Shown here piece after piece: positions 15,638-46,900 of a stretch of DNA of 64,000 bases; the first letter of the stretch is position 1; each line of letters begins with the position of its first letter. The notes under the pieces were generated by a model that was not told where the DNA came from, ran no database searches, and worked only from the letters and a program-made list of their open reading frames with translations. The translations under genes and the position numbers were made by a program. The DNA is from Colwellia sp. RSH04 (GTDB lineage: Bacteria > Pseudomonadota > Gammaproteobacteria > Enterobacterales > Alteromonadaceae): contig NZ_QXIO01000015.1 in NCBI RefSeq assembly GCF_003545765.1, forward strand, positions 1 to 64,000, written 5' to 3'.

Positions 15638-15745
15638 TATTATTTTCCTATATTATAATTTCGGTATTCGGAATTATTGTATTGCAATGTTTTTAAAAGC
15701 TTTTTCTCTTATCTTAGTGTTGTTCTAAAATATAGGAGAATAAGT

Positions 15746-29772: not shown

Positions 29773-29944
29773 TTATATGTAGCTGTGCGCCAAACGAGTA
29801 TCGAAAAGCAATGTTTCAGTGAGTTAAGCTTTTGCGAGAAAGTTTAAATGGAATCAACAGGCTACCTGTTTAATGAAACTCTCCGAAATATCGAATAACT
29901 AGGCGAGCGATCGAAAGATACTTTTCCACACGTTTGACTATTCA

Positions 29945-30200
29945 AATTTTTCCTTAAACTCACAAAAATCTTCAATAATACATGAGCAGCATTAAGACTT
30001 ACGGGCAATGCAGGTGGAACGGTCGTGCAGAATTAGCCAATGGTGCAAGTCTACTTTAAATTTTTTTGGCTCGACTTTTATTAGCTTTCTTCAACTTTTT
30101 CAATCGTTCACCCCATGGCGAGCTTAATCCGATTAGACACGCGAATATGTGGGTGTCTACCGCTATAGTCGGCCAGCAAAAATATAATAAAGCTAGATAA
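29945..30200 (-). pseudogene. nth: nth 3'-end fragment, copy 1 (decayed)
   Basis: The minus strand shows, across several frameshifts, endonuclease III C-terminal phrases: WPTIAVDTHIF, then FKVDLHHWLILH and a degenerate CIIEDFCEFKE. Only about the last 90 codons are represented. It has more lesions than the other copies, including loss of one cluster cysteine codon. It lies between the DUF2306 relic and the ECF operon. It is one of five fragments with the same orientation and nearly the same ends. Confidence 0.85.
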
Positions 30201-30368
30201 AGTGCTTGGTTTACTTCCTGTATGGTTTTCGACTTAAAGTGCTTTTGGTGATAACAAGGAAAATAGGTACTTTAATGATGGGGAACAAGTTAATTACAAA
30301 AAATTTTATCCAATGTGACACAATCGTGTTTTATTACCGACTAATTAAATATCTAACCAATTGGCAAT

Positions 30369-30857
30369 ATGCAGATACAGATGCGTAAAGAATTTGAACA
30401 AATGATTATCAACAACCAAGGGCGCATACGTTATATCGCGTCTCGATATAGTCATGACGGAGAGTTTGACGACATGTATCAAGAAATATTGTTGCAGCTT
30501 TGGAGAAGTTTTGAGTCGTTTAATGGCGAGTCGAAACAAGAAACTTGGGTTTTTAAAGTAGCACTGAATACGGCCTGCACATTTGTACGGGCAGCGGTGA
30601 AGCAAAAAGAGATTAAACAGTCTCCATTACACCAATCAATGCAAGAGCTTCAGCCTACGCAGGAAAGCTGCCAAGCAGATATTCTTAACCGCTTTATGGA
30701 TGGGCTAAATGATACAGATGCGAGCTTGCTAATGATGTACTTAGATGGTTTATCTTCGGATGACAGCGCCACAGTGCTTGGTATTAGTTCCAATGCCGTT
30801 AGGTCGCGTATTAAGCGCATTAAAAATGAATTTGAAACCAATTACATAGGAGATTGA
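30369..30857 (+). CDS. ECF-type RNA polymerase sigma factor
   Basis: This encodes 162 residues. Region 2 includes DDMYQEILLQLWRSFESFNGESKQETWVFKVALNTA, and region 4 is LMMYLDGLSSDDSATVLGISSNAVRSRIKRIK. These are the two core regions of group 4 (ECF) sigma factors. The stop is one base before the start of the next gene, a membrane protein that may act as its anti-sigma factor. The third gene is a serine hydrolase. The start could also be the ATG 12 bases downstream. Confidence 0.9.
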   Translation: MQIQMRKEFEQMIINNQGRIRYIASRYSHDGEFDDMYQEILLQLWRSFESFNGESKQETWVFKVALNTACTFVRAAVKQKEIKQSPLHQSMQELQPTQESCQADILNRFMDGLNDTDASLLMMYLDGLSSDDSATVLGISSNAVRSRIKRIKNEFETNYIGD

Positions 30858-30858
30858 T

Positions 30859-31455
30859 GTGAAGCTAGATGATTTAAAGCAAGACTGGCAACAAGCCATT
30901 GAAACCGAATCAACTCCTGATAATTTAACTGAGGTGATAGACATGATTGAGCAACAAACCACTAAGATTGATAAAGAGATTAAACGTCGCGATTTTCTCG
31001 AAATTGGAATCGCAGTATTTCTTATCCCAGTTTGGATATGGGGTTTATTAAATTCGGCAAGCACGATGCAAAGCATTGGTTTAATCATTGCGATTGTCGC
31101 TTGCATGTACATACCCTATCGACTGATATCTGCGAAAAAAGTAGACGCCAAGAAAAGCGGTAGTGTTAAGGACTTTTTAGTCCAAGAAAAACAAAAGATT
31201 CAGCAACAAAAGCAAATGTTGGAGTCGGTTGTATGGTGGTACATAACTCCGCTGACGGCGGCAATTTTACTCATCACGTTAGGGGCAAAGGTGAACGAAC
31301 AAGGTATTCCTCAAATATCGTCGGGCATGTATTGGTATTACGCTTGTGTTGGTTTGCTGGTTGTAGGTGTGTACTTCTTAAATAAACGCGCTGCCAAAAA
31401 TAAGTTTGCCCCATTGCTAAATAACATTGAGCAACGATTGGCAGAAATGAGCTAA
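30859..31455 (+). CDS. membrane protein, possible anti-sigma partner
   Basis: This encodes 198 residues with a cytoplasmic N-terminal helix region (about 1-45, LKQDWQQAIETESTPDNLTEVIDMIEQQT), two helices at about 50-90, a coiled linker (VQEKQKIQQQKQMLESV) and two more helices. Its start lies one base after the sigma-factor stop. The position and the charged N-terminal part before the membrane suggest regulation of the ECF factor, but there is no canonical zinc anti-sigma motif, so this is an inference. Confidence 0.6.
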   Translation: MKLDDLKQDWQQAIETESTPDNLTEVIDMIEQQTTKIDKEIKRRDFLEIGIAVFLIPVWIWGLLNSASTMQSIGLIIAIVACMYIPYRLISAKKVDAKKSGSVKDFLVQEKQKIQQQKQMLESVVWWYITPLTAAILLITLGAKVNEQGIPQISSGMYWYYACVGLLVVGVYFLNKRAAKNKFAPLLNNIEQRLAEMS

Positions 31456-31582
31456 CTCACCACAGACAGCCCTTACGTCTCTAACCTCCCTTATTTACCC
31501 CCCTTTTAAGGGTGCTTTAAGCGACTTGTTGAGCAAGTTGCTTCGGGCAAATACGGCCAAAATTTACTAAGGAATTTCGACC

Positions 31583-32992
31583 ATGAACAACAAAAAAACA
31601 AACAGCAAACAACAAAGTAATAAGAAAGCTTCTTCTTCGGCGATTATTGTCGTCTTGATCACATTAATGATTGCGATAGCCTCTGGTAACTCACAAGCAG
31701 CTGCAGCAAGTGCCGAACTGGAAAAGGTGCTTAAACACAAAGTAGAAACTGAAAAACTGAGTGTTGGGGTCGCCGTTGCCATCATCGAAAGCGGTCAAGT
31801 GAGCTTTATTAACGTTGGCGTTGCAAACAAGGAAATGGTTCAAAAAATCGACCAGAACACCTTGTTTGAAATTGGCTCTGTTAGCAAAGTAATGACATCT
31901 ACAGCACTTGCGACCTTTGTCGACGAAGGAAAGTTAAAACTGTCCGAACTCGTTCAAAACTACTTGCCTAAGTCAGTCAGATTGCCAATGAAAAATGACA
32001 AAGCCATCACTTTTGAGTCTTTGGCAAACCACCGTTCGGGTTTGCCTAGACTTCCAAGCAATATGCCGTTTGGCGACCCGTTAAACCCTTATGTCGATTA
32101 CACGACAGAAATGATGTACGAGTTTCTTAATCAATACACCTTGCCTCGTGAGGTAGGTGAATCACCGGAATACTCAAACCTTGCAGTTGGTTTATTGGGA
32201 CACACACTCGCTAAAATTGATAATATGAATTACGAACAAATGTTGATGCAACGCGTTCTAAAACCATTAAAGATGAACGATACCTTTGTTGACGTGCCTA
32301 AATCTGCGCTGACAAGAAGAAGCAAAGGGCACAACGGAAATCTTGAGACTACCGACTATTGGCAACTACCAGCAATGGCTGGCGCAGGTGCTGTTGTTTC
32401 AGATGTTTCTGACATGGCACTTTTTTTAAAAGCCAATATGCAACAAAACGAGTTAGCGTCGGCAATCAAATTGACCCACCAGCCTACAGCCGAATTTGGA
32501 AATTCACATACTAAAGTGGGGTTAGGGTGGATCATCCAAGGTACAGCAGATGGTGATGTTTATATGCACAATGGTCAAACAGGTGGATTCGCTTCGTTTA
32601 TTGGCTTTAATCCTACTTTGCATAAAGGCATCGTAATTTTATCGAACACTTCTATATTGATGGATGAAATAGGGTACAGTTATTTGACGAATTCTTTGGC
32701 ATCTTTAAAGCTAACGACTCCTGTAAAAGTGGCTGAAGTAGAGTTAGCAAAATTGATTGGGAGGTATGAACTGGTACCTGGTTTTATATTGTCGATAACT
32801 CACGATGAGAATAAGTTATTTGTCCAAGGTACAGGACAACCAAGGTTGCCTCTAACCGCTAACTCAATCAACGAGTTTGTTAATAACGCAGTAAAAGCGA
32901 GGATACAGTTTGAGCTTGATGCAGATGGTATAGCAACGTCACTTACTATGTATCAAGGTGGTCAAACACTACCTGGCAAGAAGCTGAAATAG
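31583..32992 (+). CDS. beta-lactamase-family serine hydrolase, exported
   Basis: This encodes 469 residues. The lysine-rich N-terminus and helix at about 18-40 act as a signal or anchor. The SxxK motif is Ser99-Val-Ser-Lys102 (FEIGSVSKVMTS), the tyrosine motif is YSN (PEYSNLAVG) and the third motif is HNGQTGGF. The last about 110 residues form an extra lipocalin-like beta domain often found on these hydrolases. This resembles AmpC-like/D-alanyl-D-alanine esterases; the substrate is unknown. It follows the ECF sigma and membrane genes by 127 bases and may belong to that regulon. Confidence 0.85.
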   Translation: MNNKKTNSKQQSNKKASSSAIIVVLITLMIAIASGNSQAAAASAELEKVLKHKVETEKLSVGVAVAIIESGQVSFINVGVANKEMVQKIDQNTLFEIGSVSKVMTSTALATFVDEGKLKLSELVQNYLPKSVRLPMKNDKAITFESLANHRSGLPRLPSNMPFGDPLNPYVDYTTEMMYEFLNQYTLPREVGESPEYSNLAVGLLGHTLAKIDNMNYEQMLMQRVLKPLKMNDTFVDVPKSALTRRSKGHNGNLETTDYWQLPAMAGAGAVVSDVSDMALFLKANMQQNELASAIKLTHQPTAEFGNSHTKVGLGWIIQGTADGDVYMHNGQTGGFASFIGFNPTLHKGIVILSNTSILMDEIGYSYLTNSLASLKLTTPVKVAEVELAKLIGRYELVPGFILSITHDENKLFVQGTGQPRLPLTANSINEFVNNAVKARIQFELDADGIATSLTMYQGGQTLPGKKLK

Positions 32993-33054
32993 AAAGATAT
33001 TTATTTGCTGCTCAGAACTCTTCATTTTGCGCCTTTTTACAAGGCGTTTCTTTC

Positions 33055-33320
33055 TTACTCGGTTTTATCCTTGAACTCACACAAGTCTTCAATAATACAC
33101 GACCCACATTTTTGCTTACGAGCTGTACATGCATAGCGGCCGTGCAAAATGAGCCAGTGATGCACATCAACTTTAAATCCAGCTGTTATCACTTCTAGAA
33201 GCTTTTGCTCTACTAGATCAACGTTTTTGCCCATGGCGAAATTAGTGCGGTTTGATACGCGATCGATATGGGTGTCCACCGCTATAGCCGGCCAGCTAAA
33301 AGATAGCAAAAGTAGATTGT
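33055..33320 (-). pseudogene. nth: nth 3'-end fragment, copy 2 (best preserved)
   Basis: An unbroken frame reads SWPAIAVDTHIDRVSNRTNFAMGKNVDLVEQ, then FKVDVHHWLILHGRYACTARKQKCGSCIIEDLCEFKDKTE and a stop at 33055. This is the endonuclease III C-terminus with all four cysteines of the 4Fe-4S cluster. The catalytic helix-hairpin-helix and lysine lie in the missing first about 125 residues; the Asp of VDTH is present. It cannot be an active glycosylase. The 5' boundary is close to those of copies 1, 3 and 4. Confidence 0.9.
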
Positions 33321-33426
33321 GAAATGCTCGTGTTTGGTGGTTTTAAATGAACTCCAGTTACTCATATTCACCCAATCGAATTATTTTAGCAATAGGACTT
33401 TGTGCAATCATTAACATGGCTTGGCA

Positions 33427-34353
33427 TCAATCGATTGGATAAACAATAAAGTGGTCTGTAACCACCCGTGATGGTGACTTTCTGCTCTGCATAATTTCAT
33501 TTAGCAGGCTAAGGTCTTTAACGGACATAGGTAGCGCTGCTTCTTCTGGCTGATAGGTCGTTGCCATTTCATAATCTTGTCCTGCCGTATTCTTCATTTC
33601 AATATGCGTACCCATTAGTGCCGATATGACATTATTTTGCGCAAAATCAGTTAGCCGAGCTATGCTATTACGGAATGCTTCCCAGTCTTTCACATACAAG
33701 CGACCCGGATAAAGACTATCGCCTGTAAGAAGCCACTTGGTTTCACTGTCATATACTGCTATTGTATCTGATTTGTGTCCTGGTAGTGCAATAATAGTGA
33801 GATTGCGATTCCCTAATTCAACATTAGCGTGAACGTTCGGCCATTTCTCGTCGTGCAATCTAAATGCTTGTTGGACCGACTCCAAGTTCGGCTTGATCAG
33901 CAATACATCAGGTTGATTTAGAAACTGACTATCACCTGCAATGTGATCTCCGTGCCCATGTGAATGAGCAACTAACCAAGATAAATTGTCGTAAATCGGC
34001 CTTCTTCGTTCAGCCAACTTATTGACGATGGATTCAATGGTTCGAAACAATGGAAATGTAACTGGATCTGATGTCGCTCCAGTATCGAGTACAAAAACCT
34101 TGTTTTTACCGAATAATAGGTAAATAAAGGGGGCTTCGTAGTGGCTACATTTGCTTTGCCTGAGTATATAGGTTGTATCTGAAAACTGATAAACTTCTAT
34201 GGACGGATCACTATTACTCTCACAAATTGGTGAACCGTGAATCCAAGTGTGTTGTGAAAGTTTAGCCATTCGTTTATCAAAATCGCTCTCTCTTGCTAAT
34301 GAATTGTCCGAAGAAAATAAAGCAATTGAAAGCAGTACAAGTATTAGCTTCAT
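33427..34353 (-). CDS. MBL-fold metallo-hydrolase, exported
   Basis: This encodes 308 residues with a signal peptide ending near NSLARES. The metal motif HxHxDH is His132-Gly-His134-Gly-Asp136-His137 in AHSHGHGDHIAGD. The further ligands are His in LPGHKSDT and Asp in LLTGDSLYPG. The enzyme should bind two zinc or iron ions and hydrolyse a small ester, thioester or lactam; the substrate is not evident. Its start overlaps the end of the upstream gene (34350) by four bases, so the two are co-translated. Confidence 0.85.
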   Translation of the reverse strand: MKLILVLLSIALFSSDNSLARESDFDKRMAKLSQHTWIHGSPICESNSDPSIEVYQFSDTTYILRQSKCSHYEAPFIYLLFGKNKVFVLDTGATSDPVTFPLFRTIESIVNKLAERRRPIYDNLSWLVAHSHGHGDHIAGDSQFLNQPDVLLIKPNLESVQQAFRLHDEKWPNVHANVELGNRNLTIIALPGHKSDTIAVYDSETKWLLTGDSLYPGRLYVKDWEAFRNSIARLTDFAQNNVISALMGTHIEMKNTAGQDYEMATTYQPEEAALPMSVKDLSLLNEIMQSRKSPSRVVTDHFIVYPID

Positions 34354-35066
34354 TTGGCAAAATCCCTTATTTCAAAGTACAACACTTCCATCGACTGACA
34401 TTGCTTTATTTTAGAATACAACGTGCCAATGTCAGGCACTGATTCGGACTGATTCACTAAGTTATTAGCAAGGCATTGATGACCAAACACGATTGCGTCA
34501 AACGATGGCGCAGTTTGAATAAGATGGATAAGCAGTTGCTTGTTATCTGGTCCTGTATCCAAAACATGCCACTCTATTGGATTTGGTTTTCCAGCGGTAC
34601 GCAAAGTTGTTAGTGGCCGCTTGTATATTTGACGGACAAATGTGAAGTTTTTGTCCTTCAGCCATTTCTCACCACCTCGCTCAAAGTGACCAAGGTAAAA
34701 CTGAGTTTCTATCTCAAAAGATTGACCGTCGATAAGTGTGTTTAAGTCAAACGTTGCTGGCAGCAGCGTTATCATGTTTTCCGCATAGTGCGCGTGTGTC
34801 GTTTTATTTGTTTGCGTTAAGTGTTCCAGCAATTGCTGCCGATGTGTACTTTCTACTTCATAAACAAGTTGGTAATCGTGAGGCGCTTGATATAAAGGTA
34901 AGTGACTGGCAAAGAGACGCTTGCCATTAGTAAACAACACCATGCCATGAAAACCTACTCGTGTATGTTTTTTATGTAGGTCATGTTTATTAAGGGAAGT
35001 TTGTGCATCTAAAGTCATGCTTGTTAATATTAACAATGTGAAAAGGATGTACGTTATGTTTTTCAT
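34350..35066 (-). CDS. exported protein of unknown function, coupled to the MBL hydrolase
   Basis: The start is ATG 35066, which opens a signal peptide (MKNITYILFTLLILTSMTLDAQ); an upstream ATG at 35099 would precede it with 11 extra residues and hide the signal. The mature part has FHGMVLFTNGKRLFASHLPLYQAPHDYQLVYEVE, a conserved-looking segment rich in His and Tyr, and later NPIEWHVLDTGPD. I do not recognise a named family. It lies between the oxidoreductase and MBL genes in an overlapping three-gene unit. Confidence 0.6.
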   Translation of the reverse strand: MKNITYILFTLLILTSMTLDAQTSLNKHDLHKKHTRVGFHGMVLFTNGKRLFASHLPLYQAPHDYQLVYEVESTHRQQLLEHLTQTNKTTHAHYAENMITLLPATFDLNTLIDGQSFEIETQFYLGHFERGGEKWLKDKNFTFVRQIYKRPLTTLRTAGKPNPIEWHVLDTGPDNKQLLIHLIQTAPSFDAIVFGHQCLANNLVNQSESVPDIGTLYSKIKQCQSMEVLYFEIRDFAK

Positions 35067-35088
35067 GGCTGGTACACTTAATACGTTA

Positions 35089-36033
35089 TTATACAACACG
35101 AACTATTGCCTTTCCGATGTTTTGCCCTTCAAATAATCCAGCCAATGTATCGGGCAGATATTCAAAACCGCAGACTTCTGTGGACTTGAACTCTATTTCA
35201 CCCGCTTTGACCCAAGGGGCAACATGCTCGATCATTTCTGCCATGCGGTGAGTAAAATCACGTGCCAATATTCCATGCACAGAAACTCGTTTATACAAAA
35301 GCTGATGTAAAAAGCGAGGGCCCACTTCTGGGGTATCCAGACCGCCGTTGTATTGTGAAATTTGGCCGCAAATAACAACACGTGCCCTCAGATTCAGACT
35401 GGTCAACGCTGCATCTGTTATCATGCCTCCGACATTATCAAAATACACGTCGACACCCAATGTTTTTAACCATTCACATTTTTCTTCAGATCCCGCAATA
35501 CCGACCACACGGCATCCAGCTTTTATAGCAAACTGAGTTACGAGCGAGCCAACGGCGCCTGCGGCACCAGATACGAGTACAGTTTCACCGGGTTTGGGTT
35601 TGCCAGCCTCCATTAATCCAAACCACGCAGTTCTGCCTGGCATACCCAAGATCCCCAGTGCAGTTTTTATATCTGCTTGCTCGGGATCGAGAGTTTGTAA
35701 TTCATTGCCGTGCACAACAGCATGAGTTTGCCAGCCAATATATCCGGTTACCCAGTCTCCGGGTTGGAAGTTGTCATTGTTTGATTCAAGTACTTTAGCT
35801 ACAACCACAGCACCCTGCACAGTGTTTAAAGGGTGAGGTGGTTCCCATGAGTGTGTTGCTGCTTGCTGGATCCGCATGTAAGGGTCAACAGAAATGTATT
35901 CAGATTTTATCAGTACCTCATTTTTGGACAATTGGGGACTAAAATCAGACTCTCTGAGTTCATAGTGCTCTCTGCCTACAAATTCATTAGGTCGTTTTAC
36001 GTAAAACCATTGCTTCAACTGATAACTGCACAT
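35089..36033 (-). CDS. NADP-dependent MDR oxidoreductase with an internal deletion
   Basis: The start is ATG 36033, eight bases after AGAGGTG, giving 314 residues. It belongs to the zinc-free medium-chain reductases of the PTGR/CurA type: PYMRIQQ, a GxxGxxG-type dinucleotide loop GAAGAVGSLVTQFA, and VYFDNVGG. Between EWLKTLGVD and VYFDNVGG about 20-25 residues normally present in the nucleotide-binding domain are missing in frame; relatives have 330-345 residues. The lost part follows the adenine-ribose phosphate pocket, so activity is doubtful. It is divergent from the LysR gene at 36144, its probable regulator. Confidence 0.8.
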   Translation of the reverse strand: MCSYQLKQWFYVKRPNEFVGREHYELRESDFSPQLSKNEVLIKSEYISVDPYMRIQQAATHSWEPPHPLNTVQGAVVVAKVLESNNDNFQPGDWVTGYIGWQTHAVVHGNELQTLDPEQADIKTALGILGMPGRTAWFGLMEAGKPKPGETVLVSGAAGAVGSLVTQFAIKAGCRVVGIAGSEEKCEWLKTLGVDVYFDNVGGMITDAALTSLNLRARVVICGQISQYNGGLDTPEVGPRFLHQLLYKRVSVHGILARDFTHRMAEMIEHVAPWVKAGEIEFKSTEVCGFEYLPDTLAGLFEGQNIGKAIVRVV

Positions 36034-36143
36034 TTCTATCGCACCTCTTGTATTTAATGTGCGAAATTGTTGCATGTAACTTATGTCCTGATAAGTTATA
36101 GTTTTTCCATTTATGATTCCAATTTGGAAATAAAGAGTTGAAA

Positions 36144-37040
36144 ATGGATACCGAAGATTTAAAGAAATTTCTAATTGTTGCTGAGACATCAAATTTACAA
36201 ACAGCATCTGAACAGCTCAACATTACAGCAGGAGCGCTTTCAAAAACTATTAAGCGCATCGAAACCAAGCTCAACATACGACTTTTTGACAGGATTGGCC
36301 GAAACATTCGGCTCAATCAACACGGTGAGAAATTCCGACACTATGCATCACATTTGGTGCATGAAGCAGAGCAGGCTATTAGTGAGTTTAGTGGCGATAG
36401 GAATAAAACATTGGTGAAGATGGCCGGGCCTTCGTTATTACTACAGCACTATATTCCCAAACTTACCCTTGGGTTAAACAAAGAACATTATGATTACAGT
36501 TTAGAGTCGGTTTGGGAAGGCCGTGCCATTGCGCAGGTAAATACGGGGCAGGCACATTTAGCTTTGGTAACTAGGTTTGCACTAGAAGAAAGTTCCCACA
36601 GTGAGGACCTTTCGAGCATTCACCTTGGTACTTCTAAGTTTAAAGTCGTGGCAGCAGTTCAGCACCCTTTACTCAAACGCTTTCCCGATGGAGAGGTCAC
36701 TGTTGATCAGTTGCGTGAATTCGGTTTTGCTTGTCCGAGTGTATCGCCCTTTTGTGGTATCAAAAGAGGCATTGGCTCAGACGGCTGGCGCGACGATAAA
36801 GTTCCTCGTACTATCAGCTATCGGTGTTCCGAGTTTAGTGTGCTTATGTCTCTGGTTAACAATGGGGTTGCACTTGCGTATGTGCCAGACTTTGTTGCCC
36901 GTAATGCAGGTTTAGTGATTATCGATGTGGTGGGGTGTGATCACATGTGTGAAGAGCAAATAGAATTGATCTATAAACCAAGCCTAGCAGATGGTTGGTT
37001 ACACCGGTTTACAGGTTCTATCGCGATTGACGAGCAATAA
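36144..37040 (+). CDS. LysR-family transcriptional regulator
   Basis: This encodes 298 residues. The N-terminal winged helix is LKKFLIVAETSNLQTASEQLNITAGALSKTIKRIETKLNIRLFDR, and the effector domain runs from about 90. The start ATG 36144 follows AAAGAG; a TTG six bases upstream is possible. It is divergent from the reductase at 35089-36033, with 110 bases between, the normal arrangement for a LysR regulator and its target. The stop lies only six bases from the end of nth fragment 3. Confidence 0.9.
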   Translation: MDTEDLKKFLIVAETSNLQTASEQLNITAGALSKTIKRIETKLNIRLFDRIGRNIRLNQHGEKFRHYASHLVHEAEQAISEFSGDRNKTLVKMAGPSLLLQHYIPKLTLGLNKEHYDYSLESVWEGRAIAQVNTGQAHLALVTRFALEESSHSEDLSSIHLGTSKFKVVAAVQHPLLKRFPDGEVTVDQLREFGFACPSVSPFCGIKRGIGSDGWRDDKVPRTISYRCSEFSVLMSLVNNGVALAYVPDFVARNAGLVIIDVVGCDHMCEEQIELIYKPSLADGWLHRFTGSIAIDEQ

Positions 37041-37046
37041 GTAGGG

Positions 37047-37311
37047 TTATTCAGTCTTTTCTTTAAATTCACGCAAGTCTACACTTATACAACTACCATA
37101 CTTTGGCTTCCTTGCTGTGCATACATAACGACCGTGAAGGATAAGCCAATGGTGAACACCCACTTTAAACTCTTTAGGCACTATTTTTTAGAGCTTTTTT
37201 CTACTTCAAAAACGTTCTTACCCATGGCAAATTTAGTGTGGTTTGATTGGCGATCGATATGGGTGTCCACGGCTATTGTCGGTCAGCCAAAAGATAAATA
37301 AAGTAGATTTG
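37047..37311 (-). pseudogene. nth: nth 3'-end fragment, copy 3
   Basis: The minus strand ends EFKEKTE-stop at 37047 and reads backwards through FKVGVHHWLILHGRYVCTARKPK to IAVDTHIDRQSNHTKFAMGKNV, with one frame break near EVEK and a TGA in place of the Trp codon before the IAVDTH segment. A cysteine codon of the cluster has become Tyr (KYGSC). The similarity ends at the same upstream point as copies 1, 2 and 4. Confidence 0.9.
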
Positions 37312-37500
37312 CAAAACTAAATAAGTGTTACACATCAACTATGGAGTAATAAACATTTGAGTGTATTTTTCTTATAGATACTGATGGATATTTAAATCCA
37401 ATAAAGTGGAATGATTACTGTAAGCGTCCGGGCAAAAACACATTCTTCTAACTAATTTTCCATCGTAAAGTTGCTCCAAGTTAATTGATAGGAGCAACAT

Positions 37501-37812
37501 ATGATCCGTAAAACATTTGATGATTGGAAAACCTTGGTTGAAAAACAAATAGCCAGCGGTTTGTCTGTGCCTCAGTTTTGTAACCAGCATAACTTAAACC
37601 CTAAGTATTTTTATGCTCGAAAATCGAAGGTTGTTCATGCAACGGAGCATACGGGGTTTATTCAGGCCCAAGTTATTACCCAACAATCAACACGCCTTGA
37701 AACGATGCCTGCGCAAAACATTACACTCATCACCGATTCGGGAAAATTGTCACTCCCTAGGGACACATCAGCTCAGTTTATTGTTGAATTACTTAGTGGC
37801 TTAGCTTCATGA
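37501..37812 (+). CDS. tnpA: IS66 accessory protein TnpA
   Basis: This encodes 103 residues with an N-terminal helix-turn-helix (WKTLVEKQIASGLSVPQFCNQHNLNPKYFYARKSK). It is the first IS66 gene, needed with TnpB for transposition in the family. Its stop overlaps the next start (ATGA), indicating translational coupling. Confidence 0.9.
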   Translation: MIRKTFDDWKTLVEKQIASGLSVPQFCNQHNLNPKYFYARKSKVVHATEHTGFIQAQVITQQSTRLETMPAQNITLITDSGKLSLPRDTSAQFIVELLSGLAS

Positions 37813-38159: not shown

Positions 38160-38245
38160 CGGGTGATCATAAGCAGCATTTATCGATCACCAAATAATCT
38201 AAGTCAGACCAACAAGTTAGCCAATATTTTTGATAAAATAACGGC

Positions 38246-39727
38246 ATGATTGAAGATGTTAACTCGCTACCGGATGATCCGGCCTTATTGAAAAAATTGC
38301 TTGCTAAGCAAGCAGCTCGACTGATGTTTTTAGAGGAGCAATTTCGCCTTGCCCAGCAGCAACGCTTTGGCGCGAGCAGTGAAAATCATCCAGCACAGGG
38401 AGATTTATTTAATGAAGCCGAAGCTGAGCTTGATGTTGTTGAAGAAGCGCGTGAGCCGCCGGTCACCACAGCAAAGAAAAAGCCCGTTCGAAAAAAACTG
38501 CCCGCAGACTTACAGCGTGAAACTAGCATTCATGATATTGAAGACAAAACCTGTGGATGCTGTGGTCATGAATTACATCAGATGGGCGATGAGCGCAGCG
38601 AAAAATTGGAGTTCATTCCAGCTCAAGTCAAAGTGATTGAACATGTACGCTTAAAGTACAGTTGTCGTACGTGTGAAAAGAAAGGCACGTCAACTCAGAT
38701 AAAAATAGCCTCTGTACCACCAAGTCCTATTCCCAAAGGGATCGCAACCGCAACATTGCTCAGTCAAATCATCACCAGTAAATATCAGTATGCACTACCA
38801 CTTTACCGCCAAGAGAGCCTATTTAAGCAATATGGCATTGAGCTGAGCCGTAAAACCATGGCGGACTGGGTGATGAAAAGTGCGGATTTATTCAAACCGC
38901 TTTATGCACGATTGCAGACTATATTATTGCAACAAGGCGTTATTCAAGCGGATGAAACGACGCTGAAAGTGATTAATGAAGATAAAGTAAAAAGCTATAT
39001 GTGGCTGTATTGCACAGGGACAGATTCGCCGAATAAAAGTGATACCCCAAATATTGTTTTGTACGACTACCAAGCTGGTAGGGCTGGGCAGTGCGCGGTT
39101 GATTATCTCGATGGTTTTACGGGATACCTGCAAGTGGATGGTTATGCCGGTTATGAAAAAACATCAGCCACCCTTGTGGGTTGTTGGGCGCATGCACGCC
39201 GCAAATTTATCGAGGCACAAACCGCGCAAGCCAAAGGTAAAATAGGCAAAGCCGATATGGCGCTCAGCATGATACAAAAGCTATACCGGATAGAAATCAG
39301 CCTTAAAGATAAAGACGCCAGTGAAAAGTATCAGCTACGTCAGGTAAAGGCTAAAGCGCAGCTTGAACAGTTTTATAAGTGGATAGAAAAAGCCAACGTA
39401 CCACCGAAAAGTGCGCTAGGAAAAGCCATACAATATTGTATAAACCAATGGCATAAACTGACCCGCTACGTTGAAGATGGCAACCTAGCCATTGATAATA
39501 ATCGTGCAGAGCGCGCGGTAAAGCCCTTCGTAATTGGCCGAAAAAACTGGTTGTTCTCAAACACAGCTAATGGCGCGCGCGCCAGTGCAATGCTGTACTC
39601 GTTAATTGAAACCGCGAAGGCTAATGGCTTAACGCCATTTGACTATATTGCTCATTGTCTTGAGCAGCTAAGCCATGAACAAACGGATGTAAAAAAACTA
39701 CTTCCTTGGAATATTAAACTTAGCTAA
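38246..39727 (+). CDS. tnpC: IS66 transposase TnpC
   Basis: This encodes 493 residues. The N-terminal coiled region (LKKLLAKQAARLMFLEEQFRLAQQQRFGASSE) is followed by a four-cysteine zinc motif (CGCCGH then CRTC) and the DDE domain: Asp in VIQADETTLKV, Asp in LQVDGYAGY and Glu in DNNRAERAVKPF. The length and motifs are complete, so the enzyme should be active. Confidence 0.95.
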   Translation: MIEDVNSLPDDPALLKKLLAKQAARLMFLEEQFRLAQQQRFGASSENHPAQGDLFNEAEAELDVVEEAREPPVTTAKKKPVRKKLPADLQRETSIHDIEDKTCGCCGHELHQMGDERSEKLEFIPAQVKVIEHVRLKYSCRTCEKKGTSTQIKIASVPPSPIPKGIATATLLSQIITSKYQYALPLYRQESLFKQYGIELSRKTMADWVMKSADLFKPLYARLQTILLQQGVIQADETTLKVINEDKVKSYMWLYCTGTDSPNKSDTPNIVLYDYQAGRAGQCAVDYLDGFTGYLQVDGYAGYEKTSATLVGCWAHARRKFIEAQTAQAKGKIGKADMALSMIQKLYRIEISLKDKDASEKYQLRQVKAKAQLEQFYKWIEKANVPPKSALGKAIQYCINQWHKLTRYVEDGNLAIDNNRAERAVKPFVIGRKNWLFSNTANGARASAMLYSLIETAKANGLTPFDYIAHCLEQLSHEQTDVKKLLPWNIKLS

Positions 39728-39778
39728 GTGTCGATTGCCGGACGCTTACTGATTACTCATAATCTATCCATAGGTTTT

Positions 39779-40417
39779 TTATAAACGTAAGAATAAAGTT
39801 GCTGTTTTTAAATCATGTAACCATAAATCTTTAATGACAGGTGTTATTGAGAGAATCAGAAGGAGCGCCATAATCATGTTAACTCTTTTAATATATTTAC
39901 TACGGGTAAAATGTTTTTTTAAAAAGGCCCCAAAAAACACCCAAATACCAACACATATTGGTCCCGCTATCAAAAATGTAGAGGTAAGCAGCAGTATTTG
40001 ACTAATGTATGAATTGCCAACTGTAGTATATGTTGACACTGCACTTACGCATATTATCCATGCTTTTGCATTTACCCATTGAAGTAGTAGGCCTTTAGAA
40101 AAACTTAATGGTTTATCGTATTTGAAATTTTTGTTCCCCTCCCCACTGTTGGCTACGACAAACGCTAAATAGAGTAAATAAACGATACCGATAATTTTTA
40201 TGCAAATTGTCAGTTGAGGGAACAAAGAAAATACTTGTCCAAATCCAAGACCAACGATAAACAGCATAATGGAAAAGCCGATGCTAATTCCCCATAACAA
40301 AGGCAAACTCTTTCTTGCGCCAAAACTAACAGCAGAAGCCATTGCCATAATAGTATTTGGTCCAGGTGTAACAGATGCAGAGATTGAAAAGATAACCACG
40401 GAGATTAAATATTCCAT
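39779..40417 (-). CDS. LysE-family amino-acid exporter
   Basis: This encodes 212 residues with six helices. The N-terminal signature is SASVTPGPNTIMAMASAVSFGARKSLPLLWGISIGF, characteristic of the LysE/RhtB group. It should export an amino acid or homoserine derivative across the inner membrane. It lies 29 bases from the IS66 end; that insertion separated it from whatever preceded it on the other side. Confidence 0.9.
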   Translation of the reverse strand: MEYLISVVIFSISASVTPGPNTIMAMASAVSFGARKSLPLLWGISIGFSIMLFIVGLGFGQVFSLFPQLTICIKIIGIVYLLYLAFVVANSGEGNKNFKYDKPLSFSKGLLLQWVNAKAWIICVSAVSTYTTVGNSYISQILLLTSTFLIAGPICVGIWVFFGAFLKKHFTRSKYIKRVNMIMALLLILSITPVIKDLWLHDLKTATLFLRL

Positions 40418-40476
40418 AAAAGCTTCTATTAGTCCTATATTATCAATTACATGTTATATCTGAGGTTAGAAACGGG

Positions 40477-41178
40477 TTAGGTGATTTTTCCATCACTAAC
40501 ATAATAAGCGATGAGGCCTAGGGAGTTGATCAATCCATGAGCAATGATCAATGGGAATAATTTTCGACCACAATATAGATATACCAATGCGAAAATTACA
40601 GCCACAATGCCAGTGCTAATAATCCCTGGTATACCTTGGGATATATGAAGCATGCCGAAAATAGTAGCGTGAACTAGAACCGCTGAAATGACACCGGCTT
40701 TTCTTTCTCCAAATAACGACATCAGGCTATTCAATAAAAAACCGCGCATTAATAGCTCCTCACCTATCGCTGCACCAATCCAAATTACAACCAGCAAATA
40801 TATAGCTAAATACAAAGGATTACCTAATAAGAACTCAAACCTATCAGTAGAGCTTTTGGGGATAGTGACATCAAGGGCACTTGAGATAATTGGTACCACC
40901 GTAGCCATAAATATTAGCACTAGCACCACGACTAGAATTGAAATGCCTATAGATTTGAACCAATTTTTTCCATCAGAAGGTAAGTTAAAGCCGCGGCTTT
41001 TCCACGTGATGTTTTGTTTCTTCATAAAGAACGTTGCGACAAATATTCCACACCACATAGCGATTGAACCCGCACCAATAGCACCTAATCTGTCAGCGAT
41101 GTCTTTAACGAGTAACATTGCGCCTAATACAACAACCACTTCAAAAATTGTTTGTTGTTTCGAAGTTAATTTTATCAT
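40477..41178 (-). CDS. CPBP-family intramembrane metalloprotease-like protein
   Basis: This encodes 233 residues with about eight helices. The Abi/CPBP motifs are GEELLMRGFLLN (EExxxR) and the downstream histidine in TIFGMLHIS. Family members cleave membrane substrates or process peptides and some protect producers from bacteriocins; no substrate is evident. Two more family members occur at 42482 and 56757. Confidence 0.85.
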   Translation of the reverse strand: MIKLTSKQQTIFEVVVVLGAMLLVKDIADRLGAIGAGSIAMWCGIFVATFFMKKQNITWKSRGFNLPSDGKNWFKSIGISILVVVLVLIFMATVVPIISSALDVTIPKSSTDRFEFLLGNPLYLAIYLLVVIWIGAAIGEELLMRGFLLNSLMSLFGERKAGVISAVLVHATIFGMLHISQGIPGIISTGIVAVIFALVYLYCGRKLFPLIIAHGLINSLGLIAYYVSDGKIT

Positions 41179-41316
41179 TATTTAATTTTTCCTAATATTG
41201 CCGAGTTTTAGCTTTTCGATGGTATTTTATTGGCCTATTAAAATAATGGTTTTGTCTTTATTTTTTAAATGATAATATTTCATTTATTTATTAATAAAAG
41301 AGATAAATAGTTTCCT

Positions 41317-42249
41317 ATGGCATTACATCCATCAACGTTAACTTGTCTTCAAGTGTTTAGCGCAATAGTTGAAGAAGGAGGTTTCAGTAAAGCATCCAAG
41401 CGATTAGGTTTGACGCAAAGTGCAGTAAGTCATCGAATAAAGCAATTGGAAGAAATCACAGGTGTAAGTCTTATTAATAGAACAACAAGATATATGAAAG
41501 TGACAGATGTTGGCCAACGTTTATATAATCAGTCTCGATTAAATCTAGTTGAACTAGAGCGAACATTATCCAGTCTGAAGAGCATATCTGAGGCTCCGTT
41601 AAGTTTAACCACTATATCGTCATTAGCGACCAAGTGGTTGTTACCTAAACTCAGTGAGTACAACCAAAAACACCCTAATCAGCCATTATCGGTACTGACT
41701 GACGACAAAATTATCGACTTAGATTATGAAGGCATCGATGCCGCAATACGACTAACCGATATTAACGACCCTACTCTGCATATGTCCTTTATTTGTGATG
41801 AATGGGTTTTTCCTGTAGCAAGTAATGCTATAGCTAAAGATGAAAATATTATTGCTCATCCAAAGCAGTTATTCGATTTTCCTTGGCTACTAGATGTTAT
41901 AGCTGAAAAAGGAAGTGATGAAAGCTCTTGGAAAGGTTGGCTCAGCAACCAAGCACTTAGTTTTCCTGATAATCATAAAAAGCAAAGCTTTAACCGATCT
42001 GACATTGCACTTCAGGCTGCGGCGGCGGGGCAAGGGGTTGCCATCGCTAGAGCGAGTTTAGTTGAAACAGATATGCTGGAAATGAAACTTTTTAAACAAG
42101 TAGGACGTGCAGTAAAGATGAAATATTCATATTATTTTGTATGTTCTCATGAAAAGGCAGATCATCCTGTGATAGTCAACCTGAGAGATTGGATATCAAA
42201 AGAACTAAAGGCATCTGTTAGCAGAGTTAAGCAGCAACTTATTTATTAA
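41317..42249 (+). CDS. LysR-family transcriptional regulator (GcvA-like)
   Basis: This encodes 310 residues. The winged helix is LTCLQVFSAIVEEGGFSKASKRLGLTQSAVSHRIKQLEEITGVSLINR, and the effector domain resembles GcvA/AmpR types (GIDAAIRL, AAAGQGVAIARASLVE). It is divergent from the CPBP gene at 40477, with 138 bases between, so control of that gene is a reasonable inference. The start ATG has only a weak ribosome site. Confidence 0.9.
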   Translation: MALHPSTLTCLQVFSAIVEEGGFSKASKRLGLTQSAVSHRIKQLEEITGVSLINRTTRYMKVTDVGQRLYNQSRLNLVELERTLSSLKSISEAPLSLTTISSLATKWLLPKLSEYNQKHPNQPLSVLTDDKIIDLDYEGIDAAIRLTDINDPTLHMSFICDEWVFPVASNAIAKDENIIAHPKQLFDFPWLLDVIAEKGSDESSWKGWLSNQALSFPDNHKKQSFNRSDIALQAAAAGQGVAIARASLVETDMLEMKLFKQVGRAVKMKYSYYFVCSHEKADHPVIVNLRDWISKELKASVSRVKQQLIY

Positions 42250-42481
42250 AAACATTGCACGTGAACTAAAGTGTCTAATGAACTAGGGGGAGGTAATTGG
42301 CATGAGTGTAAATGAGATAGCATTTAATCGTCAAATAAGTTGGCATTATAACTTAATTAAAGTTAACTTGTGCTTAGGCTGATATTTGAAATAAAAGGGT
42401 TTCCCCAAAAGATCCCTGATGAAAACACTTAAGAATATGAGGCTTGTCGATTACTAACAAAAATAAATACTTTAAATATCT

Positions 42482-43186
42482 ATGTCATTTATTCTACAAA
42501 TAGTCCTAGCACTTCTCATTTTATCTTGGTTATCCATTTATTTAGCTGAAAAACGTAATATTTTTCGAATTTGGATAACTCCCGTTAAACAACGATTGAA
42601 TGAATTTTATTTCGGGTTCGTGTTAATGGGAACACTTAGCCTGTTGACTCAGCTTTTATTTACTCTTATTCATGGCACTAATTGGACAATTTCTGATGAG
42701 CTGACAATCAGTAAATTCTTATATTCAAGCGCTTATGATTTTAGCTCAGTAGTCTTTGAAGAATTATTGTTTCGCGGTGTTTTACTCTACCTTTTGATTG
42801 CATACTTAAATGAGCACAAGGCTATAGCTATTTCTGCAATAGCATTTGGTATTTATCATTGGTTTACCTATGGCATTTGGGGCAATCTCTTAGGAATGAC
42901 TCTCGTAATCATCACAACAGGGTTTATGGGATACGTTTTTGCCAAAGCTTACAGTAAAACTAACTCAGTCATGCTCCCAATAGGGCTGCACATTGGCTGG
43001 AATTGGATTAATAATAGCGTATTTTCAAATGGCCCCAATGGGAATGTATTTTTATTACCAAATCAAACTTTCGCGATGGAAGGATATATAGGCCTTTTTT
43101 CATTTCTGTGGTTTTTAATTATTCCAGCAACGGTTTTGTTCTTATTAAACATGAATGTACTGGGCGCATTTAGGTCAAAAATTTAA
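42482..43186 (+). CDS. CPBP-family intramembrane metalloprotease-like protein
   Basis: This encodes 234 residues with seven to eight helices. The motifs are VFEELLFRGVLLYLL (EExxxR), FGIYHWFTYG (HxxxN-like) and IGLHIGWNW. It differs from its neighbour at 40477, so it is not a recent duplicate. The 230 bases before it hold no gene. Its stop is about 140 bases from nth fragment 4. Confidence 0.85.
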   Translation: MSFILQIVLALLILSWLSIYLAEKRNIFRIWITPVKQRLNEFYFGFVLMGTLSLLTQLLFTLIHGTNWTISDELTISKFLYSSAYDFSSVVFEELLFRGVLLYLLIAYLNEHKAIAISAIAFGIYHWFTYGIWGNLLGMTLVIITTGFMGYVFAKAYSKTNSVMLPIGLHIGWNWINNSVFSNGPNGNVFLLPNQTFAMEGYIGLFSFLWFLIIPATVLFLLNMNVLGAFRSKI

Positions 43187-43327
43187 TTTAATACAGCAAG
43201 GTGACTTCACAATAATAAGTGTTTCAATACAATAAAATAAAAACTATAACTTGAGCTTTCAAACTAATGCCCACAGTCAAAGCGCTGGCTTTCAAACTTC
43301 CGTTGAGCGCTCAAAACAAACCTACGA

Positions 43328-43492
43328 CTAGTCTGTTTTCTCTTTAAACTCTGCTAGTACCACTTTCATCAGCTTTTGTTCTACCTCAACCACGTTTTTA
43401 CCCATGGCAAGCTTAGTATGATTGGAAATACGGTAAATATGCGTATCTACGGCGATGGTAGGCCAGCCAAATGATGAGAAAAGTAGATATTG
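43328..43492 (-). pseudogene. nth: nth 3'-end fragment, copy 4 (internally deleted, frame open)
   Basis: It reads SSFGWPTIAVDTHIYRISNHTKLAMGKNVVEVEQ, continues KLMKVVLA and then joins directly to EFKEKTD-stop. The iron-sulphur loop of about 35 residues is deleted exactly in frame. Most differences from copies 2 and 3 are at third codon positions. The 5' boundary matches that of copies 1-3. Confidence 0.9.
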
Positions 43493-43961
43493 TAGGTGTT
43501 ATTAATGTATCGTTTGTGCAGTGCCATAATTTGACTGTGACTATGACTATTGCATCTGTGTCGATTCAGTGAGTTCAAGCGGTTTTTCGCACTCAAAATT
43601 CAATTAAGATTCATTTTGTTTATGATATTTAAAATCTTGACTAGCGTCTATGGATGTTAACTTGCCTATCAGTAAAAGGCAAAATACATCTATGGGTCGA
43701 TCAAATTTTGGTGTATTTCTGTGTAGTCTTAGATTACCCATAAGTCATCCCATAAGATATAACCTAAACGCCCTAATTCCATTGTAACAATAAAGGGATG
43801 CAGAAACACTTTACGTCATAAGAACAAGTACCCCAAAAATAGTATATTTTTAAGTTTATGGAATATTATTGTACGTCGAATTTCGAATTCGACGCATAAA
43901 TACCTTTCTTATCTGCCAATATACGGCTTTTACTGTGTATTGTAGTATTAAGGGATCACAT
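43493..43961. other. non-coding region after nth fragment 4
   Basis: I see no gene or strong terminator. CGTCGAATTTCGAATTCGACG at 43874-43894 is an inverted repeat 70 bases upstream of the next start and may be a regulator site. The rest is featureless. Confidence 0.5.
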
Positions 43962-44663
43962 ATGAATTTAAATACTAAAGGCAGATTGGCAGGCATTTTA
44001 TATTTGCTACTCGTAATAACAGGCATATTCAACTTGAAGTATGTACCAACTGAATTAATAGTTTGGAGCGATGCAGCTTTAACGCTGAGCAATATCTCAT
44101 CATCGGAGTTTCTTTATCGATCAGGTATTGTTGCCGGAATTCTAAGTTATGTTATTTATCTATTATTACCGCTCATTTTTTTCGATATTTTTAAAGATGT
44201 CAATCGACGCCTCGCGTTATTAATGGTTGCCTTTTCTGTAGTAAGCGTTCCTATTTCTCTATTTAACATGGTGGATAAAGTAAATGTTTTAACTTTACTA
44301 AGTGACGCTAATTTTTTGAGTTCGTTAAGTACCGAACAAATTCAAACGAAAGTCATGCTTTTACTTAGATCCTATAACAATGGAATATCTGTCGTTCAAA
44401 TTTTCTGGGGGTTATGGTTATTCCCCTTAGGATATTTAATTTTTAAATCTGCGTACATCCCAAAACTTTTGGGTGTTTTACTTATGTTTGGATGCTTTGG
44501 TTATTTGACTCTATTTTTCCAGCATTTTCTCTTTCCTGAGGTTGAACTCCCAGCATTTGTTTCATTGCCTGCTTCTTTAGGCGAACTTGGTACTTGTTTG
44601 TGGCTTTTAATCATGGGGATAACAGATCGTTCTGTTCAACCAAGGTCTCAAATTCTGAAATAA
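43962..44663 (+). CDS. DUF4386 family membrane protein
   Basis: The ATG at 43962 is preceded by AAGGGATC, giving 233 residues with six helices. It begins MNLNTKGRLAGILYLLLVITGIFNLKYVP and has the family feature QIFWGLWLFPLGYLIFKS near the fifth helix. DUF4386 proteins have no established function. An upstream in-frame extension exists but lacks the ribosome site. Confidence 0.85.
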   Translation: MNLNTKGRLAGILYLLLVITGIFNLKYVPTELIVWSDAALTLSNISSSEFLYRSGIVAGILSYVIYLLLPLIFFDIFKDVNRRLALLMVAFSVVSVPISLFNMVDKVNVLTLLSDANFLSSLSTEQIQTKVMLLLRSYNNGISVVQIFWGLWLFPLGYLIFKSAYIPKLLGVLLMFGCFGYLTLFFQHFLFPEVELPAFVSLPASLGELGTCLWLLIMGITDRSVQPRSQILK

Positions 44664-44862
44664 ATTCACTAGCAGTTTTCATGTTAAACTTGATGGATTG
44701 CTGAAAACAATATTATAATTAAATTAAGCTGAAATTGGAGATGCACAATCCTTTGCTAAAACTGGCTTTTAGATTGGGTTGTTCTTAATTGAGGGGGCTA
44801 TTTTTGAGTCAACTCTATGAAAGTCTGGCTTTTCTTTCAACAGCTATTGATTGAATAAGCTA

Positions 44863-45909
44863 TTAAATTTCCAACTGTTGCTTACGATACTGACCGGGTG
44901 TAAAGCCAGTAAACTCTTTAAATGCTCGTGTGAATGGAGCGGCGGAAGCAAAACCACTTTCAATTCCAACGACAAGTACAGGCCAGTCAACTTTATCAGG
45001 TGCAATCAATATGGTTTTAGCATGTTCAATACGCATTTGGTTTACGTAGTGGTTAAAGTTTTTAGCATTAAAATGGTTGAGCATTACAGATCGGATACGA
45101 TATTCGGGGACGTTCAATTCACGAGCGATGTCAGCAACTCGTAAACTCGATTCCAAATAACGTTTTTCATCAACCAGAATCGTGTGGATTTTTTGGGCAA
45201 GTTCGGGTTCCTCTTGTGCAGAGGGGGCTGTGTTCTGTTCTTTTTGATCAAGTTGCTGTTGGCGGAAGAGAATTAATCCATGAGTACTGATTAGCATGAC
45301 TAAAAATGCGAAAGCCGATAGCCAGTCTCGCCCAGCGTCAGCTAATAGAGTAGTTGGAAGTGACGCTCCTATTAACATCACGCTGATAACGCAAAAAATG
45401 AATGAGGATAGGTAAATAGAAGCTATTTTCCGTTGTATTGAAGTTGTACTATGTAAAACTCTATAACCTTCCCAGAAAATAAGAATGAGCATGCCAGGAT
45501 ACAATATTGCAATTATTTCAGTTAAAACGTCTGATAGCACCGGTAGCCAAACTGAATTGACTAACCATGTTTTTTTAGAAAAGAGTAAAAGATGATGTAA
45601 TATCAAGCATGCTGAAAGTAAGCCTACCAAAAGCAGGTGATGCTTATTAATAGGATTGTTTTTTCGAAAAAATGAACGCGCAAATAACCAGTATCCACTA
45701 GAAATGCCAACCCCCAATAGGCCTATTAAATGGTGATAAGGATCCCAATAGTGACTGGTTGCTTTATGTACAAGATACATGGAGGTGGATGCACAAAAAA
45801 TCGCAAACATGAAGTGCAACAGATGCCTTTCTTTTAGGCGAAAATGAAAGATGGCTAATGTAAGACTTAGCAAGACTATAATTAATTGGGCTAGATGTAA
45901 CAGTTCCAA
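44863..45909 (-). CDS. membrane-anchored AraC-family regulator
   Basis: This encodes 348 residues. Seven helices occupy the first about 215, and the AraC domain lies at about 245-345 (LRVADIARELNVPEYRIRSVMLNHFNAKNFNHYVNQMRIEHAKTIL, then GIESGFASAAPFTRAFKEFTGFTPGQYRK). It is divergent from the small membrane protein at 46074, with about 165 bases between, the probable target. The layout matches the regulators at 14594 and 49243. Confidence 0.85.
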   Translation of the reverse strand: MELLHLAQLIIVLLSLTLAIFHFRLKERHLLHFMFAIFCASTSMYLVHKATSHYWDPYHHLIGLLGVGISSGYWLFARSFFRKNNPINKHHLLLVGLLSACLILHHLLLFSKKTWLVNSVWLPVLSDVLTEIIAILYPGMLILIFWEGYRVLHSTTSIQRKIASIYLSSFIFCVISVMLIGASLPTTLLADAGRDWLSAFAFLVMLISTHGLILFRQQQLDQKEQNTAPSAQEEPELAQKIHTILVDEKRYLESSLRVADIARELNVPEYRIRSVMLNHFNAKNFNHYVNQMRIEHAKTILIAPDKVDWPVLVVGIESGFASAAPFTRAFKEFTGFTPGQYRKQQLEI

Positions 45910-46073
45910 CTTTTACTCCCTTTGTTTCTGACGCTATTTTACAGTAACTCAGTTCTTTTTCTATAATCTTCTTGTTTTTGTTCATTTTCGTGTATCGATT
46001 TTGAAATTTGATGCTCCTTAAGCCCCTAGACATGCGAGTATTGAAGCGAAATTTGAACAATAAGGTTATTGCT

Positions 46074-46586
46074 ATGAACAGTAAATCGGTCACAAATAAC
46101 GACAGTGTTATTGCAAGTGAAAGTATTAATAACGAAGACAATTTAACGCAAAATAACGCGCCATTAGTACCACTATGGCAAACTTGGGGACTTCGAGTAT
46201 TTTTTGCGGGATTAGTGTTTGTCATTGGTAAATGGCAGTTGATGTCTATTTTACAGGGGCCTTTTGAGTGGACATCATGGCGAGGTGTGGGGCATTCACT
46301 TTTATTTACACTTGCTTTATTGGCTATCGGCGGCATGTTTCGCCCAATAGCGTTTCTACCTATTATGCTATTTGAAATCGTTTGGAAAGTAGTTTGGTTG
46401 GCTGCTGTCGCACTGCCACTATGGATGGCAGGTGAGCCAATTCCGGGTGTTGTAAGTGTAAAAGGATCGCTAATCGGGGTTGGTTTAATCATTATTTGTG
46501 TCCCTTGGAAATACGTTTGGTGGAGATATTTTTCACAACCTATTGAGCCATGGAGACGCAAAAAACAGGTGAGTAATAAAAAGTAA
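46074..46586 (+). CDS. four-helix membrane protein of unknown function
   Basis: The start is ATG 46074, giving 170 residues. A polar N-terminus of about 35 residues is followed by four helices (about 42-60, 75-92, 97-120 and 130-150) and the ending WWRYFSQPIEPWRRKK. I do not recognise the family; the loop length and Trp-rich helices are consistent with a DoxX-sized integral protein. It is divergent from the AraC gene at 44863. Confidence 0.6.
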   Translation: MNSKSVTNNDSVIASESINNEDNLTQNNAPLVPLWQTWGLRVFFAGLVFVIGKWQLMSILQGPFEWTSWRGVGHSLLFTLALLAIGGMFRPIAFLPIMLFEIVWKVVWLAAVALPLWMAGEPIPGVVSVKGSLIGVGLIIICVPWKYVWWRYFSQPIEPWRRKKQVSNKK

Positions 46587-46759
46587 AAATTAAACAGTGA
46601 TTAAGGCTGAGTAGGAGAGTCCATTGTTGTCAAGTGGATTACTTACTTTGTCCGCCCCCCCTTAGAGTGAAGTTCGCTTATTGCTTGAAGTAGCATAACG
46701 AAAATATAATGCCTTAAATCCGTCTATTGTTGTTCCAACAACTCTGAACGGACTTAAGG

Positions 46760-46900
46760 CTGCTCTGTTTTATCCTTGAACTCACACAAGTCTTTAATAA
46801 TACATCACCACAGCGTGGTTTACGTGCAACACAAGTATAGCGACCGTGAAGAATAAGCCAGTGGTGTACGTCTACTTTAAATTTTTTTGGCACGATTTTT
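46760..46900 (-). pseudogene. nth: nth 3'-end fragment, copy 5 (shortest)
   Basis: The minus strand carries FKVDVHHWLILHGRYTCVARKPRCG, then a frameshift and a degraded CIIEDLCEFKDKTE. Unlike copies 1-4 it lacks the IAVDTHI region. Upstream of FKVDVHHW the frame runs through KKIVPKK into a fragment of an unrelated sensor protein (46901-47225). Confidence 0.85.

Follow-up and report, generated by a model that had tools for sequence, protein, structure and literature searches.

Why should the 3' end of nth, the gene of the DNA-repair enzyme endonuclease III, recur in a single orientation between successive gene modules? This question is raised by a 64,000-nucleotide stretch of Colwellia sp. RSH04 (positions 1 to 64,000 of contig NZ_QXIO01000015.1; C7:1-64000 in our numbering and hereafter the window), part of a source genome (G000) of 4.15 Mb in 71 contigs. 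A reading made from this sequence only had proposed serial integration at nth, each event leaving an nth 3' end behind. We consider it probable, on the strength of comparative sequence analysis, that the array consists of scars of site-specific insertions made by a large serine recombinase (LSR) into nth at TTTGGCTGG. The comparison supports this account through one insertion point, displaced native gene ends, a clade of LSRs located at that point, and an attachment site of the incoming element (attP) that is split between nth and a conserved arm.

Fragments of nth and their common junction

A profile search of G000 placed the intact nth at C4:38004-38576 on the minus strand, with a distant full-length relative at C1:338465-338986. 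The same search recovered five nth 3' fragments in the window, all on the minus strand as the sequence-only reading had described, and two further minus-strand fragments at C4:34458-34661 and C11:15886-16095. When aligned as DNA against the intact gene, four of the five window fragments start at exactly nth nucleotide (nt) 388, which sharpens the earlier claim of a nearly common start, and the C4 and C11 pieces begin at the same nucleotide, in agreement with the pattern that the earlier reading had sought genome-wide. Some details of that reading needed correction. A full-length fragment comprises the final 82 codons of nth, not about 90; the fourth fragment is missing its middle; and the fifth has no junction, its first 120 nt are gone and, on our reading of the sequence, so is its stop codon.

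Nucleotide 388 falls at TTTGGCTGG, codons 130-132 of nth. Directly upstream of it, those fragments that retain a 5' end carry a conserved arm, ATCTACYTTNATTATC, which does not occur in intact nth. Across 45 aligned junctions, chosen by their likeness to a first junction consensus, the arm reads A-TCTAC-YTTN-A-TTATC followed by TTTTGGCTGGCC, with little conservation further upstream; the resulting consensus is TTATCTTTTGGCTGG. The attC/attI junction of integrons has a GTT core, which this consensus lacks. The window held three matches to the junction pattern, as compared to 0.12 expected. In the order as a whole, the pattern TCTACTTTNNTTATCTTTTGGNTGGCC with at most three mismatches occurred in 17 of 394 genomes and 13 of 114 genera (reversed control, 0 in each), and 24 of the 26 sites adjoin an nth 3' end, the exceptions being a single G314 site and one of the two in G068. 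Shortening and loosening the pattern cost its specificity: it then matched 39 of 39 genomes of the genus with similar control counts in most. A degenerate pattern applied to named genome contigs returned 20 stretches across ten genera (Litorilituus, Thalassotalea, Colwellia, Pseudoalteromonas, Paraglaciecola, Aliiglaciecola, Alteromonas, Aestuariibacter, Glaciecola, and Shewanella). Viral contigs contained 23 stretches with the junction pattern, none with an nth match. Phage and plasmid records matching the C-terminal part of Nth numbered 12 and 63, respectively; the single one inspected, Shewanella baltica pSbal01, carries an intact nth, and no fragment was found in it. At some cassette ends, an extra box (GGCACAATTCAGAAGTT or similar) lies ~20 bp before the arm (L131:3020-4052, L129:80-120, L124:9800-9840).

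The arrangement of the window recurs elsewhere. Our locus comparison covered 42 fragment starts, some of them weak or degenerate, and 51 intact nth genes. In 15 loci, an intact nth is followed by at least one fragment downstream on its own strand, with no fragment on the opposite strand; these are tandem nth-bounded modules of the kind that the earlier reading had proposed to seek in related genomes. Modules between fragments measure ~0.7-7 kb. The ancestral order is nth-gloA, with gloA lying 48-83 bp past the end of intact nth in seven loci, and in several array or island genomes it is the last fragment that occupies this gloA-adjacent place, at 36 bp in G028, 37 bp in G003, 56 bp in G036 (a weak match), 37 bp in G319, 11 bp in G512, and 36 bp in G128 (a truncated fragment). 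The distance is 497 bp in G270 and 595 bp in G184, and other loci have more intervening DNA. The C-terminal residues point the same way. Nth of cassette-less Shewanella ends in KIYPDE or KIYPEE, and in three genomes of the Shewanella family the last fragments end in KVYPDE (G270 and G068) and KIYPED (G184). Because these ends are of the native type and the intact genes of the same three genomes end in DKTE, the displaced end is the lineage's own, the intact gene carrying another tail. A different arrangement was seen in L047 (G013), where positions 5697-7091 hold the 5' half of nth, then another Nth-like frame that is only distantly related, and a 3' fragment of the hybrid type described below (type II).

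Recombinase islands and the hybrid Nth protein

A search for resolvase domains in 18 array genomes gave matches in 11. The match in G319 is an LSR of 561 amino acids (aa). Its reading frame starts 26 bp away from the arm, and next come the nth end and gloA; the intact nth of this genome lies 65 kb from the LSR junction on the same strand. Close relatives of this LSR were found in G401, G560, G691, G512, and G461, and the search at an E-value of 1e-40 matched 12 of 395 genomes of the family. A displaced nth end lies within 100 bp of five of the six close LSR genes, with the proviso that the G560 and G691 proteins score identically and may represent one insertion. No nth end was present in 34 loci (~3-5 kb each) carrying more distant LSRs. 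Four islands are bounded by an intact nth and a displaced end (9.7 kb in G401, 11.3 kb in G512, 37 kb in G691, and 65 kb in G319), and in each the recombinase gene adjoins an attachment (att) site and nth is restored in frame; the G560 island is unbounded, its intact nth lying outside the stretch examined. In Pfam, the G401 and G319 proteins scored well above the cut-off for PF00239 and 0.5-1.6 bits below it for the zinc ribbon PF13408, and those of G512 and G691 were assigned to the class by similarity. Cargo includes a Mob_Pre relaxase (G401 and G512), a type III methylase (G401), and type I restriction-modification genes (G319). A further island of the hybrid type, 13.6 kb long in G128, contained no LSR that we could find. 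Scanning viral contigs for the LSR gave 51 pattern stretches and no confirmed case, a plasmid search returned one distant record only, and a search of solved structures gave no match. Given its position, the LSR found at the junction in related bacteria is likely the agent of insertion.

The intact nth of the four bounded islands is a hybrid (type II), encoding AFGWLKDN(E/D)GRYF-x-AVDTH where the native protein has AFGWPTIAVDTH. The junction arm, reverse-complemented, is the DNA that encodes KDNEGR; translated in the nth frame, the right half of attP gives LKDNEGRYF, which immediately precedes Asp138, a residue with a catalytic role. Rejoined in silico, attP pairs 16-18 of 24 bases around the centre TTTGGCT/GG in all four islands, as compared to 8-14 at the best centre for attB, attL, and attR, and when 1280 windows of the gene were ranked for each island, the true attP position alone came first. 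Two limits place the crossover within TTTGGCTGG, six residues before Asp138: as far as TTTGG the arm and nth are unlike each other, and immediately past CTGG the two nth types diverge. The crossover is 82 codons from the gene end, so about 40% of nth would be swapped.

The same relationship extends to junctions outside the islands. Among 47 junctions, chosen by their likeness to the junction consensus and not to the nth-encoded arm, arms matched the latter at a mean of 17.0 of 20 positions (range 14-19; reversed control, 8.2), and the four arms of the window matched at 15-17. The hybrid type accounts for 31 of the 36 intact-nth loci in the window's genus; 28 of the 31 have at least 15/20 arm matches, and the other three were read out of register. 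Six hybrid loci of the genus have gloA within 100 bp, the island being gone, and each of these, as we read it, is a domesticated scar. Junctions of the attR type were present, and those of the attL type occurred only at LSR islands and in the type II genes of the genus.

Proposed mechanism and competing explanations

In the mechanism that we propose, an incoming element would carry a palindromic attP, with a spare nth 3' end already fused in frame to the right half of this site. Upon integration, nth would stay whole by taking over the element's 3' end, together with the added LKDNEGRYF, and the host's own 3' end would be displaced downstream, beside the element's left arm ATCTACYTTNATTATC. 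The LSR-less modules of the window could be passengers moved in trans by such an LSR, or decayed islands. The hybrid nth might then be gene-converted by the displaced native copy, which would erase the attP arm and re-create attB; with the target restored by gene conversion, insertions could repeat and a tandem array could build. When intact ends were set against displaced ones in 11 cases, three showed a long identical run followed by a drop (162 bp and then 59-67% identity in G270; 216 bp and then 74% in G068; a run of 135 bp in G120). The window's array would be a relic, its LSR now gone from the genome. The proposal of serial integration leaving nth 3' ends is borne out by same-strand downstream fragments in 15 loci, the last fragment beside gloA, displaced native tails, and LSR islands at the same point. 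Since the likely agent is a recombinase of a known class, we regard the system as a variation on island insertion and not as new chemistry. A bolder version, to which we lean slightly less than evenly, is that nth acts as a self-renewing capture site: LSR-less modules would enter nth in trans, the hybrid Nth would bear its peptide beside the active site, and gene conversion would erase the peptide and restore attB, allowing integron-like stacking, with the peptide instead kept in most members of the window's genus.

Several observations weigh against insertion by the LSR. A reset step is required, because the intact nth of array genomes is of the native type, and outside the three comparisons above the identical runs were shorter or missing (none in G184 or G000). 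The sequence-only reading had suggested looking for an island with an integrase at the 3' end of the intact gene; LSR islands do stand at nth in four other genomes, but in G000 the intact nth and the window's array are on separate contigs, no close LSR was found at 1e-40, and one resolvase, a 188-aa protein, lies elsewhere in the genome. Profiles of twelve tyrosine recombinases and the LSR, run against 605 open reading frames (ORFs) from 22 array loci, matched only the G319 LSR and a recombinase at 62092-62751, outside the window's array. The close LSR of G461 is not at nth, with no nth end in the 15 kb around it. A second arm type, ...TTATCAAC(T/G)GCGATAATRC... before TTTGG, occurs at the same nth point (L287:15050-15100 in G128, L127:11613 and 13960, L128:8162) and belongs perhaps to another LSR lineage. 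A module with ogt, isocitrate-lyase-like, and LysR genes, 92% identical between two genera, is inverted relative to nth (L044:13461-15863 and L119:7367-9787). Finally, the left edges of shared modules retain little of nth: in two pairs the match sets in within the final 45-70 bp of the gene, otherwise it starts at the stop codon, and the remainder of the nth end is 72-77% identical in three pairs.

Such left edges, with module matches reaching into the nth tail, would be expected if homologous recombination alone had built the arrays: starting from one old arm and nth-end junction, modules would have spread by transformation and unequal exchange between 245-bp nth ends. The mosaic nth ends and the fragments, which can be 93% alike inside one genome, also fit this explanation. 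It fares worse at the right edges, where identity falls to background at the arm/TTTGG boundary. In the L044/L117 pair, for example, identity is 98.1% across the 213 nt preceding codon 129 and falls to 74.1% past it, in the nth end; the window/L223 and G271/L122 pairs resemble it in dropping at the arm, and in the L126/L210 pair the match stops short of the arm. Moreover, modules unrelated to one another stop at this arm, ahead of which no sequence is conserved, and LSR islands share both the arm and the exact insertion point. Homologous recombination certainly plays a part and may spread modules, which recur across Litorilituus, Thalassotalea, the Shewanella family, and further families; as the sole cause we think it unlikely. 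Mobilization by the integron integrase IntI is far less probable still. IntI is present in 16 of 17 junction-pattern genomes and the modules are cassette-sized, but the enzyme also occurs in 31 of 35 genomes of the family (169 of 394 in the order), and being equally common there it does not discriminate; G339 has the junction without IntI, and the junction is without the GTT core. Random segmental duplication of the nth end, which decayed fragments of unequal length might suggest, we dismiss almost entirely. The random orientations or variable ends that the earlier reading had named as contrary signs are contradicted by one orientation and a common start nucleotide with the arm in many genera, and gloA adjoins the last fragment in several genomes.

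Known systems, significance, and the window's modules

The nth system shares with known LSR islands and integrative mobilizable elements that restore a target 3' end an LSR gene at one att site, a palindromic attP, an in-frame target, and relaxase and restriction-modification cargo. It differs from them in that the crossover lies deep inside the gene, 82 codons from its end, the attP arm joins the protein and most array insertions are without a recombinase. Staphylococcal cassette chromosome (SCC) and composite islands at orfX/rlmH, as described in PMC6243372, likewise use one site in one gene that is kept intact, form tandem elements, and include recombinase-less members (pseudo-SCC). Unlike SCC, the system described here lies in nth instead of rlmH/orfX, belongs to another phylum, and leaves a long displaced gene end per junction; the likeness drawn here is one of arrangement. 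Integron cassettes also form arrays of small modules with a repeated element between them, shared across genera, whereas nth modules are multi-gene, occur in both orientations, and have another junction, target, and candidate enzyme class. Cis-mobilizable elements (CIMEs) are att-flanked modules without a recombinase of their own. The nth-array modules may be comparable, being recombinase-less and bordered by attR-type junctions, but their left end is native-type nth and not attL, and movement in trans is here a suggestion from comparison. A search of open-access literature (main texts, with few subscription papers covered, and so a weak negative) found no publication that describes integration at nth, and the main text of one LSR survey mentions neither 'nth' nor 'endonuclease III' (PMC10083194).

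If our reading is true, several families of marine Gammaproteobacteria harbor a site-specific island system that rewrites ~40% of a near-universal DNA-repair gene per insertion, and displaced nth ends would form a readable log of earlier insertions. The attP arm read as Nth protein in 31/36 loci of the genus would plainly exemplify how a recombination site can become coding sequence. The LSR and its att sites could be developed into an integration tool for these bacteria, and nth arrays make the origin of recombinase-less modules testable.

Coordinates of junction arms, nth fragments, and modules in the window (identities are to the intact nth; arm matches are to the nth-encoded arm)
Feature	Position	Strand	Basis
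Conserved arm (attP-left half-site) of the ECF/hydrolase module	30182..30198	-	Site at 30197; 17/20 arm matches
Conserved arm	33301..33317	-	Junction pattern; 16/20 arm matches
Conserved arm	37292..37308	-	Junction pattern; 17/20 arm matches
Conserved arm	43472..43488	-	Junction pattern; 15/20 arm matches
nth 3' fragment 1, nt 388 to stop, decayed	29938..30181	-	71% identity; profile match 29989-30102
nth 3' fragment 2, complete 82 codons	33055..33300	-	78% identity; start nt 388
nth 3' fragment 3	37047..37291	-	76% identity; start nt 388
nth 3' fragment 4, middle deleted	43328..43471	-	72% identity in aligned part; start nt 388
nth 3' fragment 5, 5' truncated, no arm	46760..46901	-	86% identity (aligned 46763-46901); start nt 509
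Module: ECF sigma factor, membrane protein, beta-lactamase-family serine hydrolase	30198..33054		Pfam; common to Pseudoalteromonas sp. 3D05
Module: metallo-beta-lactamase-fold protein, second ORF, zinc-type reductase, LysR-like regulator	33318..37046		ORFs; Pfam for first and third
Module: LysE exporter, two CPBP/Rce1-like proteins, LysR-like regulator, insertion sequence	37309..43327		ORFs, Pfam
Module: DUF4386 protein, AraC-type regulator, small membrane ORF	43489..46759		ORFs; Pfam DUF4386

Modules do lie between the fragments, as first described; the LysE/CPBP module also includes an insertion-sequence-like gene trio at 37501-39727, presumably IS66-like. The ECF/hydrolase module is 92.4% identical to its counterpart in Pseudoalteromonas sp. 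3D05 (L223) over 2841 aligned positions, and window positions 40357-41574 match the same contig at 88.8%.

The tyrosine recombinase at 62092-62751 was considered as the agent and rejected: it has a single close relative (in G028) among the ORFs compared, and neither was seen at nth. This small recombinase adjoins a transposase-like ORF near the contig end, its relative lying in locus L182. Relatives of another tyrosine recombinase, that of L058, share a stretch with nth in nine members of the genus (L053, L055, L056, L057, L064, L072, L074, L078, and L079); they are of the integron-integrase type where read, and in L055 the relative lies beyond gloA/yaeQ-type genes. Outside the array, window positions 15356-16828 and 56767-57544 resemble genes of nth-array modules in T. 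algicola (L118), L044, L121, and L128, at 67.9-68.5% DNA identity. From this likeness, the cassette region may be wider than the five-fragment array.

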